NCBI GenBank assembly: GCA_006218065.1
Contig: VBWE01000002.1
Span: forward strand, 177,045 to 241,044
DNA: 64,000 bases
Origin: Bacteroidota bacterium
GTDB lineage: Bacteria; Bacteroidota; Bacteroidia; Palsa-965
Direction of reading: 5' to 3'
The translations under genes and the position numbers were made by a program. Shown in pieces: positions 16,962 to 20,582 of this stretch (its first letter is position 1; every line of letters begins with the position of its first letter). The notes beneath the pieces were generated by a model. The model ran no database searches and was not told the DNA's origin. It saw nothing but the letters and a program-made list of their open reading frames with translations.

Positions 16962-17630
16962 ATGAACGGGCAGGTTTTTGAAACGTCGAAAAACGAGCGA
17001 ACCGCCGCCAGTATCCTTTCCTGGATTTTTCATCCCATACTGATGGTGAGCTACGCCAGCGCACTGTACTTCGTCGCTTTTCCCTACATCCGCATTACGG
17101 CCAATACGGAGCGTGTGCAACTGATGCTGCTGATGATCCTGCTGCTTACTTTTTTCCTGCCGGGACTTTCTACGTTCATCATGTTCCGCCGCGGACGTTT
17201 AAGCCAGATGCAGCTTGGCGAGCGGAAAGAACGATTGTTCCCGCTCGTGTACACGGCAATCATTTACATGATCGCTTTATTTATGATCCGCGGAAAAGGA
17301 TTTCCCGGTTTTATAGAAGTCTTCCTGCTGGGTTCCATCGCTTCGCTGCTCCTTGCGTCCGTGATCAATTTCCGGGTGAAGGTCAGTTTGCATGCGCTCG
17401 GCATCGGCGGCCTGGCCGGCGGCATGCTGGCTGCGTATCTTCATCTGCAGCACGGGAACCTGTGGATACTGGCGCTGATCTTCCTGCTCTGCGGGATGAT
17501 CGGAACGGCGCGCCTTGTTTTACATGCCCATCGCCCGGGCGAAATTTATCTGGGCTTATTATCAGGCTTTTGCATCGAATTCTGCGCAGTTTTTTTCCTC
17601 GCATTTGGCAGACTGGAATTCTTATCGTAA
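16962..17630 (+). CDS. Membrane protein, possibly a degenerate PAP2-fold protein
   Basis: 222 residues and six membrane helices. Three segments lie in the order expected for PAP2 phosphatases: GERKERLFPL (for KxxxxxxRP), SLHALGIGG (for SGH) and RLVLHAHRPGEIYLG (for SRxxxxxHxxxD). The residues are only partly conserved, so it may bind lipid phosphates without acting as a classic phosphatase. Its start is four bases after rpoN, so it is co-transcribed with that gene, an arrangement I believe is seen in other Bacteroidota. Its stop codon (17628-17630) falls inside the promoter/operator of arsR. Confidence 0.55.
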   Translation: MNGQVFETSKNERTAASILSWIFHPILMVSYASALYFVAFPYIRITANTERVQLMLLMILLLTFFLPGLSTFIMFRRGRLSQMQLGERKERLFPLVYTAIIYMIALFMIRGKGFPGFIEVFLLGSIASLLLASVINFRVKVSLHALGIGGLAGGMLAAYLHLQHGNLWILALIFLLCGMIGTARLVLHAHRPGEIYLGLLSGFCIEFCAVFFLAFGRLEFLS

Positions 17631-17635
17631 TATTG
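17604..17635 (+). promoter_or_regulatory. arsR promoter
   Basis: TTTG at 17604-17607, exactly 20 bases, then TAATATTG at 17628-17635: one mismatch from TAnnTTTG. The ATG follows 20 bases after the box. The -7 box lies in the middle of the ArsR-type operator, so binding would exclude RNA polymerase. Confidence 0.65.
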
Positions 17636-17639
17636 CGAT
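17624..17639. promoter_or_regulatory. ArsR operator, box 1
   Basis: ATCGTAATATTGCGAT, a 16-base palindrome with one mismatched pair. Symmetric A/T-rich centres with CG steps are typical of ArsR/SmtB sites. It covers the arsR -7 box and is repeated with 13 of 16 identical bases at 18000-18015. Confidence 0.6.
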
Positions 17640-17654
17640 GAATTTAGAATTCCG

Positions 17655-17981
17655 ATGGGACTTTCAAAAACAGACGAATTTACCGTAAAGGATGTCAAGC
17701 TGTCGCTGGTGGCCAAAGCGCTGGCGCATCCGGCGCGGGTGGCGATTCTCCAACTGCTCGTGGAAAAGCAAAGCTGTATCTGCGGCGATATTGTTGACGA
17801 ACTTCCGTTGTCGCAGAGCACCGTTTCGCAGCACCTGAAGGAGTTGAAGGAAGCCGGTCTGATCAAAGGCGACATCGAAGGGAAAACGGTTTGCTACTGT
17901 ATCGACGCGGATAACTGGGCGAAAGCCAAAGAAGCGTTCGGGCAGTTTTTCCGTTCCTTCAAGGGGAATAGTTGCTGCTGA
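17655..17981 (+). CDS. arsR: ArsR-family arsenic-responsive repressor
   Basis: 108-residue winged-helix repressor. The helix-turn-helix ([19 protein letters not shown]) is at 55-73 and the wing ([10 protein letters not shown]) follows. Two cysteine groups could sense As(III): C36 and C38 (QSCICGDIV) before helix 3, and C107-C108 at the very end (GNSCC), with C81 and C83 in the wing. The family releases its operator when trivalent arsenic or antimony binds three cysteines. The operator-like palindrome over its promoter and a second one downstream fit self-control and control of arsM. It opens the arsenic block. Confidence 0.93.
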
Positions 17982-17999
17982 TTTTTTTTGACCGAATCC

Positions 18000-18015
18000 A
18001 TCGTCAGATTACGAT
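18000..18015. promoter_or_regulatory. ArsR operator, box 2
   Basis: ATCGTCAGATTACGAT, with arms ATCGT and ACGAT, is 13/16 identical to box 1 at 17624-17639. It lies 19 bases after the arsR stop and 64 bases before the cysteine-rich peptide. TTTG at 17987-17990 is in front of it, but the matching -7 box is weak. Confidence 0.55.
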
Positions 18016-18079: not shown

Positions 18080-18163
18080 ATGAAAACGAACGAAATCGTG
18101 CATAACAATTCCTGCTGCTGCGGGGGATGCACCGGCGGATGCTGCGGAAGCGGATGCTGCTGA
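18080..18163 (+). CDS. 27-residue cysteine-rich peptide in the arsenic operon
   Basis: A short frame from ATG 18080 to TGA 18163. It begins MKTNEIVHNNS and then turns into a dense cysteine run, CCCGGCTGGCCGSGCC, giving eight cysteines in 27 residues. The A-rich leader (AAAAACAAAACAAC) is typical of Bacteroidota translation starts. The tail GSGCC is also the last five residues of the neighbouring ArsM, and ArsR ends NSCC, so the cluster shares vicinal-cysteine endings. The obvious idea, by analogy with metallothioneins, is binding of As(III); nothing here proves that. It sits between an ArsR-type box and a terminator-like hairpin, so it may be made on its own short mRNA. Too short for usual gene finders. 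I know no named family. Confidence 0.7.
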   Translation: MKTNEIVHNNSCCCGGCTGGCCGSGCC

Positions 18164-18169
18164 ACCATT

Positions 18170-18212
18170 GCGCTGCATGGTCCCGGTACCTCCGGATCAT
18201 GCAGCGCTTTTT
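18170..18212 (+). terminator. Hairpin with T-tract between the peptide and arsM
   Basis: GCGCTGCATG (18170-18179) and CATGCAGCGC (18198-18207) form a perfect 10-bp stem with an 18-base loop, followed by TTTTT. It starts six bases after the peptide stop. It would stop much of the transcript before arsM, or stabilise a short peptide mRNA after processing. Confidence 0.75.
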
Positions 18213-18234: not shown

Positions 18235-19080
18235 ATGTCTACTTCAGAAGAACTCAAAAATGTTGTCCGCGAAAAGTACGCGATCATCGCCGGGCAGACC
18301 AAAGAACAGAACGAAAGTTCCTGCTGCGGTATTTCAGGATGCTGCGGAACGGTTGACTATGCTGTTTTCAGCGAAGCGTATGAAAAACACGAAGGCTATG
18401 TCAGTGAAGCCGATCTCGGGCTGGGCTGCGGCATTCCAACGGAGTTCGCCAAAATCAACCCCGGCGATACCGTGCTCGACCTCGGTTCAGGCGCAGGTAA
18501 CGATTGTTTTGTGGCGCGCGCCATCGTGGGTGAAAAAGGAAAAGTGCTGGGCGTTGATTTCACAGACCAGATGATTGCCAAAGCGCGGGCAAACGCAGAA
18601 AAACTCGGTTTCAACAACGTGGAATTCCGTCACGGCGACATCGAGCAACTGCCCGTAGGCGGAAACAGCATCGACGTGGTCATCAGCAATTGTGTGCTGA
18701 ATCTCGTTCCGGATAAAGCCAAAGCGTTCGGCGAAATTTTCCGGGTGCTGAAACCGGGCGGACATTTCAGCGTGAGTGATATCGTACTTTCCGGCGAACT
18801 TCCCGAACAAATCAAAGGAGCTGCTGAAATGTATGCGGGCTGTGTTTCAGGCGCCATCCGCAAAGAAACGTATATCAAGCTGCTGGAAGACGCCGGTTTC
18901 ATTAACATCCGCATCGAAAAAGAACGCGCCATCGTTATCCCGGAAGAAATTCTGCTCAGCTATTGCAGCAAAGAAGAGCTTGAAAAATTCAGCGACAAGG
19001 GCAAAGGAATTTTCAGCATAACCGTTTACGGTGAAAAACACAAAAGCGCCTGCTGCACGCCGGGCAGCGGATGCTGCTAA
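18235..19080 (+). CDS. arsM: Arsenite methyltransferase
   Basis: Uses S-adenosylmethionine to methylate As(III) to mono-, di- and trimethylated forms, some of them volatile. 281 residues. The SAM-binding glycine motif VLDLGSGAGND is at 80-90. The three conserved As-binding cysteines are C65 (LGLGCGIP), C153 (ISNCVLNL) and C203 (YAGCVSGA). Two extra cysteine patches are notable: C30, C31, C36 and C37 near the N-terminus (SSCCGISGCCG) and a tail ending CCTPGSGCC. The upstream hairpin may reduce its expression relative to the peptide. Confidence 0.97.
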   Translation: MSTSEELKNVVREKYAIIAGQTKEQNESSCCGISGCCGTVDYAVFSEAYEKHEGYVSEADLGLGCGIPTEFAKINPGDTVLDLGSGAGNDCFVARAIVGEKGKVLGVDFTDQMIAKARANAEKLGFNNVEFRHGDIEQLPVGGNSIDVVISNCVLNLVPDKAKAFGEIFRVLKPGGHFSVSDIVLSGELPEQIKGAAEMYAGCVSGAIRKETYIKLLEDAGFINIRIEKERAIVIPEEILLSYCSKEELEKFSDKGKGIFSITVYGEKHKSACCTPGSGCC

Positions 19081-19148: not shown

Positions 19149-19910
19149 ATGAAAATTGCATTGATCAGTGATATTCACGCCAACCTGCCGGCGCTCGAAG
19201 CCGTGCTGCAGGATATCGACGGGCGAAATCCCGATATGATTTTCTGCCTCGGTGATCTTGTCGGTTACGCGCCCTGGCCGAACGAAGTCATCGACCTTAT
19301 CCGCTCGCGGAGGATTCCGACGATCGCCGGCAATTACGACGAAGGCATCGGCCTGCACAGCGACGAATGCGGATGCGCGTATAAAACCGACGAAGAAAAA
19401 GCGATGGGTAAAATATCCATCCGCCTGACGAACGAATGGACTACGGAAGACCGCCGGCTTTACCTGCGCCGGCTTCCCGCGCACATCGCACTCGATTTTC
19501 AGTTCGGGACGGAAAAAATCAAACTGCTCCTGGTACACGGCAGTCCGCGAAAAATAAACGAATACCTTTTCGAGGACCGCGAAGACAAAAGCCTGCTGCG
19601 CATCATGAAGGAAGAAGGCGCGGATATTATGGCTTTCGGCCATACGCACAAACCCTGGCACCGGGCGATGAGCGACGGCGAACAATTTGTCCATGCGGTA
19701 AATACGGGTTCTGTCGGAAAACCGAAAGACGGCGATCCGCGCGCAGGTTACGTGATGCTGCACCTGGATGAAAAATCTTCGCTGAAAAATGCCGCAGGTA
19801 TCCGCGTCGAATTTATCCGCGTCGGTTATGACGTCGGAAAAACAGCCCAAGCAATTGAACAGTCGGGCCTGCCGGTGGAGTATGCCGGCATGCTTCGCAA
19901 AGCGTATTAA
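19149..19910 (+). CDS. Calcineurin-like metallophosphoesterase
   Basis: 253 residues of the YfcE/MJ0936-type phosphoesterase fold. Metal ligands: D8 and H10 in ISDIHANLPA, D36 in CLGDLVGYAP, N58 in IAGNYDE, H136 in LLVHGSP, and H160 and H162 in AFGHTHKPW. These enzymes usually cleave phosphodiesters or phosphomonoesters with Mn or Fe. It lies between arsM and an aquaporin in the arsenic block; a role on an arsenic- or phosphate-containing compound can only be guessed from this. ATG 19149 overlaps (ATGA) the stop of a 19-codon frame that begins at 19093. Confidence 0.85.
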   Translation: MKIALISDIHANLPALEAVLQDIDGRNPDMIFCLGDLVGYAPWPNEVIDLIRSRRIPTIAGNYDEGIGLHSDECGCAYKTDEEKAMGKISIRLTNEWTTEDRRLYLRRLPAHIALDFQFGTEKIKLLLVHGSPRKINEYLFEDREDKSLLRIMKEEGADIMAFGHTHKPWHRAMSDGEQFVHAVNTGSVGKPKDGDPRAGYVMLHLDEKSSLKNAAGIRVEFIRVGYDVGKTAQAIEQSGLPVEYAGMLRKAY

Positions 19911-19925: not shown

Positions 19926-20582
19926 ATGCGGATAAAAAAACTGGCGGCGGAATTACTCGGAACCTTTATCATCGTTTTTTTCGGAACGGGTGCAATCGTT
20001 GCCGACCAGGAAAACGGCGGAGCAATTACGCATACCGGTATCTCGCTCGCATTCGGTTTGGCCGTGGCCGTTTCGATCATTTTTTTCGGAAAATTATCCG
20101 GCGCACATTTTAATCCTGCCGTCAGCCTCGGTTTTGCCATGGCCGGACGCTTCGCCTGGAAAGATGTATCACCTTACATCATCGCGCAGCTTGCCGGTGC
20201 TTTTGCCGGAAGCATGCTGCTGAAAATATTTTTTCCTGCAAATGAGAAACTCGGCACAACACTTCCGTCGGGAACGGAATTGCAATCGTTCCTGCTCGAA
20301 CTGTTGCTGACGTTTCTGCTCATGCTGGTCATCCTGCGCGCGTCGGCGAATAAAAAACTGGTCACCGCGGTGGTCGCTTCGATCGTCGGTTTGGTTGTCG
20401 GCCTGGAAGCGTATTTCGCGGGACCGTACTGCGGAGCGTCTATGAATTCCGCCCGCTCGCTCGCACCCGCCGTCGTTTCGGGGCATACGGAAAGTCTCTG
20501 GCTTTACCTTGTTGCACCGACCGGGGGCGCGGTTCTCGCCGTTTTTGCGGACCGGCTGATTCCCGGGAATAAAAAAGCGTAA
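19926..20582 (+). CDS. Aquaporin-type channel (MIP family) of the arsenic operon
   Basis: 218 residues and six membrane helices with two half-helices. The first half has the canonical HFNPAVSLG; the second has MNSARSLAPAVV, where NPA is changed to NSA. Aquaglyceroporins pass arsenite and, in Sinorhizobium, AqpS in the ars operon serves in arsenic resistance. Here, with arsM and no arsenite pump nearby, it may let out uncharged As(OH)3 or methylated forms; that is inference. It begins 15 bases after the metallophosphoesterase gene and ends two bases before a convergent gene. Gene name aqpS would be the nearest, but I leave it blank. Confidence 0.85.
   Translation: MRIKKLAAELLGTFIIVFFGTGAIVADQENGGAITHTGISLAFGLAVAVSIIFFGKLSGAHFNPAVSLGFAMAGRFAWKDVSPYIIAQLAGAFAGSMLLKIFFPANEKLGTTLPSGTELQSFLLELLLTFLLMLVILRASANKKLVTAVVASIVGLVVGLEAYFAGPYCGASMNSARSLAPAVVSGHTESLWLYLVAPTGGAVLAVFADRLIPGNKKA

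Follow-up and report, generated by a model that had tools for sequence, protein, structure and literature searches.

A candidate cysteine-pair micropeptide gene between arsR and arsM in Bacteroidota and its possible role in trapping arsenicals

The arsR–arsM spacer and its open reading frame

The locus lies in a 64,000-nucleotide stretch of Bacteroidota DNA, referred to here as the window, in which an ArsR-type box, arsR, a second ArsR-type box, a short cysteine-rich ORF, a hairpin, arsM, a metallophosphoesterase gene and an aquaporin gene follow one another:

17624-17639, no strand assigned: ArsR-type box 1, ATCGTAATATTGCGAT, before arsR (from the sequence; the same box stands before arsR at the related locus L014)
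17655-17981, plus strand: arsR (HTH_5, 3.8e-14; NF033788, 6.1e-22)
18000-18015, no strand assigned: ArsR-type box 2, ATCGTcagattACGAT, before the peptide ORF (from the sequence; relatives carry boxes at the corresponding place)
18080-18163, plus strand: ORF of the 27-residue, eight-cysteine peptide, MKTNEIVHNNSCCCGGCTGGCCGSGCC (from the sequence, shuffles and comparison with relatives)
18170-18212, plus strand: terminator-like hairpin with a 14-bp stem and a T5 tail (fold prediction)
18235-19080, plus strand: arsM, arsenite methyltransferase (NF008823, 1.2e-105)
19149-19910, plus strand: metallophosphoesterase (PF12850)
19926-20582, plus strand: aquaporin-family channel (PF00230, 8.6e-48)

The identities of arsR and arsM, assigned by profile matches, are firm, and the metallophosphoesterase gene probably belongs to the ars neighbourhood. 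ArsR of the window ends in NSCC, and its cysteine pattern (CxC, CxC, C-terminal CC) resembles that of ArsR from Arsenicibacter rosenii (PMC11868830); ArsM carries the motifs SSCCGISGCCG at its N-terminus and ACCTPGSGCC at its C-terminus. Box 2 overlaps the promoter-like -10 element (TACGAT) of a promoter-like site at 17988-18015. The hairpin begins 6 nt past the stop codon of the peptide ORF, ends 22 nt before arsM and, at 18170-18207, has a predicted minimum free energy of -30.7 kcal/mol (z -7.2). The space behind it is too short for arsM to have a promoter of its own, so that transcription from upstream probably continues into arsM. A metallophosphoesterase gene also follows arsM on the Adhaeribacter plasmid NZ_CP055152, in the order arsR-arsN2-arsM-metallophosphoesterase-acr3.

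The peptide ORF is preceded by the A-rich leader cctaaaaacaaaacaac and encodes a peptide that begins with a short polar stretch and continues with vicinal cysteine pairs. Cysteine makes up 30% of the residues and is encoded by TGC throughout; the stop codon is TGA. The terminal GSGCC is common to the peptide and to ArsM, which ends in CCTPGSGCC. The original prediction, made from the letters of this DNA, was exact in placing a 27-residue frame with eight cysteines between arsR and arsM, and likewise right about the leader, the flanking box and hairpin and the shared terminus. When the 253-nt arsR–arsM spacer was shuffled 20,000 times with its dinucleotides preserved, no shuffle contained an ORF with eight cysteines (the best had seven), and 15 of the 20,000 contained any ATG-initiated ORF of at least 16 residues with at least 20% cysteine, indicating that the ORF is neither due to chance nor explained by the composition of the spacer. 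In our judgement it is very probably a real, translated gene.

Nearest relatives and recurrence beside arsM

The order to which the window belongs is represented in our collection by 12 genomes of one family, and its genus by a single genome. Seven of the nine arsM loci of this family are devoid of the peptide; five of the nine (L004, L007, L008, L011 and L013) consist of arsR, box and arsM, with some 35-65 nt between. At L014, which belongs to another genus of the same family, arsR and a box are followed by a 44-residue ORF with 14 cysteines, MENNKNGCNCGTATSTNNNNCCNSNSNCNCNCNCCGCNCNCGCC, a hairpin and arsM. The product of this ORF is the nearest match to the window peptide and occupies the same slot; slot, start, stop, cysteine-richness and hairpin are common to both loci, whereas the sequences differ. 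At the family locus L006, arsM stands behind two ArsR-type boxes and has no adjoining arsR, although arsR is present in its relatives.

The window ORF might instead have arisen by chance or be decaying, for example as a by-product of a local duplication of the cysteine tail of ArsM or ArsR; in favour of this, the nearest relatives mostly lack the peptide, its sequence is not conserved, and a decayed copy occurs at L188. The shuffling result, the exact framing of the ORF by box, ATG, stop and hairpin, and the filled slot at L014 nevertheless make such an origin improbable.

In a wider survey, 233 distinct arsM loci, nearly all from Bacteroidota, were gathered at class and phylum level and in a second large family, and scanned for short ORFs with at least four cysteines and a terminal CC, located on the same strand within 300 nt of arsM. 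By this criterion, which was modelled on the window peptide and the earliest members of the set, nine ORFs were found, namely eight micropeptides, including the window's own, and one GDCCVxC-type protein; shuffled flanks yielded a mean of 0.08 and antisense flanks 0. A first, stricter scan had found seven ORFs near arsM and two unlike ones in all other sequence. With sampling at the genus level, the set comprises 19 intact peptides and one decayed copy, but counts from the whole sample overstate the frequency, since genera known to carry the peptide were added. The survey was centred on arsM neighbourhoods, and some loci have short downstream flanks, so that some downstream copies may be missed.

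The peptide precedes arsM in the window and at L014, L209, L226 and L301, and follows it at L059, L067, L191, L270, L273 and L277 and in the g410 clade. An ArsR-type box directly precedes the peptide in the window and at L014, L226 and L301. As in the window, where it begins at +6, a hairpin closely follows the stop codon in nearly all other cases. Presence of the peptide on the ArsM tree requires at least eight gains or losses, yet it is clustered, as none of 500 shuffles gave so low a number; in this scoring L188 was set to absent because its copy is decayed, and L299 was also set to absent, which is uncertain because the available sequence ends just upstream of arsM. Together with its absence from most loci of the window's family, this indicates that the peptide is an accessory component. 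The suspicion that a wide family had been missed is borne out insofar as similar genes recur beside arsM, but their distribution is patchy (8 of 233 loci, counted without the targeted sampling of genera). Frames in arsR–arsM spacers, also anticipated, were found in the window and at L014, whereas many members lie downstream of arsM.

The decayed copy at L188 lies 3' of arsM; its start region is homologous but has no ATG, and the last cysteine is replaced by tyrosine. The number of cysteines is even in 16 of the 17 listed peptides (4, 6, 8 or 14), as if the pair were the unit. A larger cysteine-rich GDCCVxC protein, of about 70 residues and ending in KKCC or CCN, also recurs near arsM (L043, L157 and L199).

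Codon-level constraint and kinship of the peptides

Codon-level evidence comes from relatives in another family, f36. In one clade, all eight arsM neighbours keep the pattern MNTNQ[NK]DPGCC...CC-stop, and changes in length are in-frame only. Of the codon changes that separate the members of five close pairs, 14 are synonymous and 10 nonsynonymous, with start and stop kept and no cysteine lost; the pair L261/L265 differs by five synonymous and no nonsynonymous changes. When the same numbers of substitutions were placed at random, a mean of 5.3 synonymous changes resulted (P=0.0002 for the observed 14); the retention of all cysteines had P=0.0024, the integrity of start and stop P=0.046, and all three together occurred in 0 of 20,000 trials, although the values for cysteines and for start and stop, unlike the synonymous excess, are partly built in, as intact cysteine-rich ORFs were sought. 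The predominance of synonymous changes and the retention of every cysteine indicate that the f36 relatives are translated genes under amino-acid selection. The hairpin past the stop codon persists in these relatives, with a changing stem sequence. The test covered f36 members, as the collection contains no close relative of the window's genus. The conserved frame envisaged in the original prediction exists at codon level in another family, whereas the nearest relatives of the window do not preserve the sequence of its peptide.

Size, cysteine pairs, CC terminus, the neighbourhood of arsM and the following hairpin are common to the window peptide and the f36 peptides, and the start of the former, MKTNE, resembles the MNTNQ of the latter by eye only. 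By architecture the window peptide appears to be of the same kind. A profile of the f36 peptides does not recover it, giving -0.6 bits, a score that 60 of 1000 shuffles of the same composition equalled, and so does not establish common descent with the others. With the window peptide as query, no other match was obtained in 395 genomes of the class and none in plasmids. A profile of seven peptides run over 149 genomes found two and missed known ones, so that this search is insensitive and absence from it means little. The window peptide has no Pfam or NCBIfam family at E≤1, and comparison of 15 members of the group with the same collections returned no family, a single Pfam match at E=0.2 being taken as chance; solved structures gave one weak match (granulin, E=0.29), likewise taken as chance. 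A literature search, confined to openly available papers, turned up no account of peptides like these. The window ORF is probably a small unannotated cysteine-pair gene of an arsenic operon, and a member of an unrecognised group whose products may bind arsenic.

Possible roles of the peptide

We moderately favour the view that arsR, the peptide ORF and arsM form an operon induced by arsenic, in which the ORF is a genuine micropeptide gene, one of a class patchily distributed beside arsM in Bacteroidota, and that its product traps As(III) or methylarsenite with its thiols. The peptide would be made once ArsR leaves its box and would then lower the free arsenical by binding either As(III), through three thiols, or methylarsenite, the product of greater toxicity, through two. 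As(III) needs three thiol ligands and MAs(III) two (PMC11868830), and a thiol peptide built from pairs and located beside ArsM would suit either task. Among 275 distinct ArsM proteins, 234 end in a cysteine tail and 259 have an N-terminal SCCG. The peptide, with CC-x(3-5)-CC at its extreme C-terminus, would in effect be a free copy of the tail of most Bacteroidota ArsM proteins, encoded by its own ORF, and might exchange the arsenical with the cysteine-rich ends of ArsM. An origin as a split-off ArsM tail was considered and rejected, as ArsM beside all seven first-found peptides keeps its own cysteine tail. A more specific version is tentative and in our view doubtful: that these peptides form an undescribed class of dedicated ArsM partners which hand over As(III) or trap methylarsenite and are made in excess by means of the internal terminator.

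Bacterial metallothioneins such as SmtA/BmtA and MymT are small and cysteine-rich. The window peptide is so too and may likewise bind a metal or metalloid, although eight cysteines in 27 residues are permissive only for metal thiolate binding. Unlike metallothioneins, it has about half their size or less, carries vicinal CC pairs with Gly/Asn spacers, matches no Pfam or NCBIfam family and adjoins arsM. The metallochaperone ArsD serves ArsA, which is absent from the set of neighbouring genes examined in the window. ArsD of E. coli has C-terminal vicinal cysteine pairs (PMC4562236), so that pairs of this kind within an ars operon are a feature shared with the peptide, but ArsD is a folded protein, whereas the peptide has 27 residues and no ArsD domain.

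Many soft metals are ligated by cysteine pairs, the sequence has no known feature specific to arsenic, and the mostly even cysteine numbers would also fit disulfide chemistry. The peptides might accordingly serve for other soft metals, in redox buffering or as a cysteine store under arsenic stress. Such roles are fairly unlikely in view of the recurrent setting with arsM and ArsR boxes and the match to the ArsM tail, although the argument from the setting is weaker than it looks because the survey was centred on arsM. It is extremely unlikely that the ORF encodes a RiPP-like precursor of a modified peptide: the short polar N-terminus and the cysteine-rich C-terminal half would suit one, but no modifying enzyme was seen among the identified neighbours in the window or among the ORFs read at L128, L243 and L191.

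ORFs of 16-44 codons are usually passed over by gene callers, and a recurrent part of bacterial arsenic-methylation operons may therefore have gone unnoticed. Should these peptides bind As(III) or methylarsenite, as the thiol-trap reading holds, bacteria would use dedicated mini-thiol peptides alongside ArsM, which would be relevant to the survival of methylators in the face of the toxic compounds they make and to the methylation of arsenic in soils.

In the proposed operon, most transcripts would stop at the hairpin, past the peptide but short of arsM, so that more peptide than ArsM would be made. Alternatively, the peptide may be inert and its ORF an attenuator leader, in which translation of the cysteine codons or arrest of the nascent chain by arsenic sets termination at the hairpin before arsM. 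A hairpin placed within an operon behind a short ORF or an ars gene has a precedent in the ars1 operon of Bacillus CDB3, which is attenuated by an internal hairpin that limits a downstream part (PMC4562236); in the window, too, the hairpin stands immediately behind the stop codon with arsM following too closely for a promoter of its own, and the close succession of peptide and hairpin is seen in nearly all cases. We consider attenuation quite improbable, because the relatives constrain the amino acids, unlike attenuator leaders, and leave the hairpin sequence free, and because at least at one relative's locus (L243/L258) the operon ends with the peptide, which lies after arsM, and the next gene is convergent, so that nothing is left downstream to attenuate. 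The case is weakened further by L226, where the hairpin is followed by a separate box for arsM, and no alternative pairing is evident in the predicted fold of the window. Upstream of the peptide, the leader before the ATG looks conserved at six loci (L059, L191, L209, L270, L273 and L277), where a T-run is followed by TAAAnAGTA[AT]AGCC-ATG, a degree of conservation beyond the need of an ordinary spacer.
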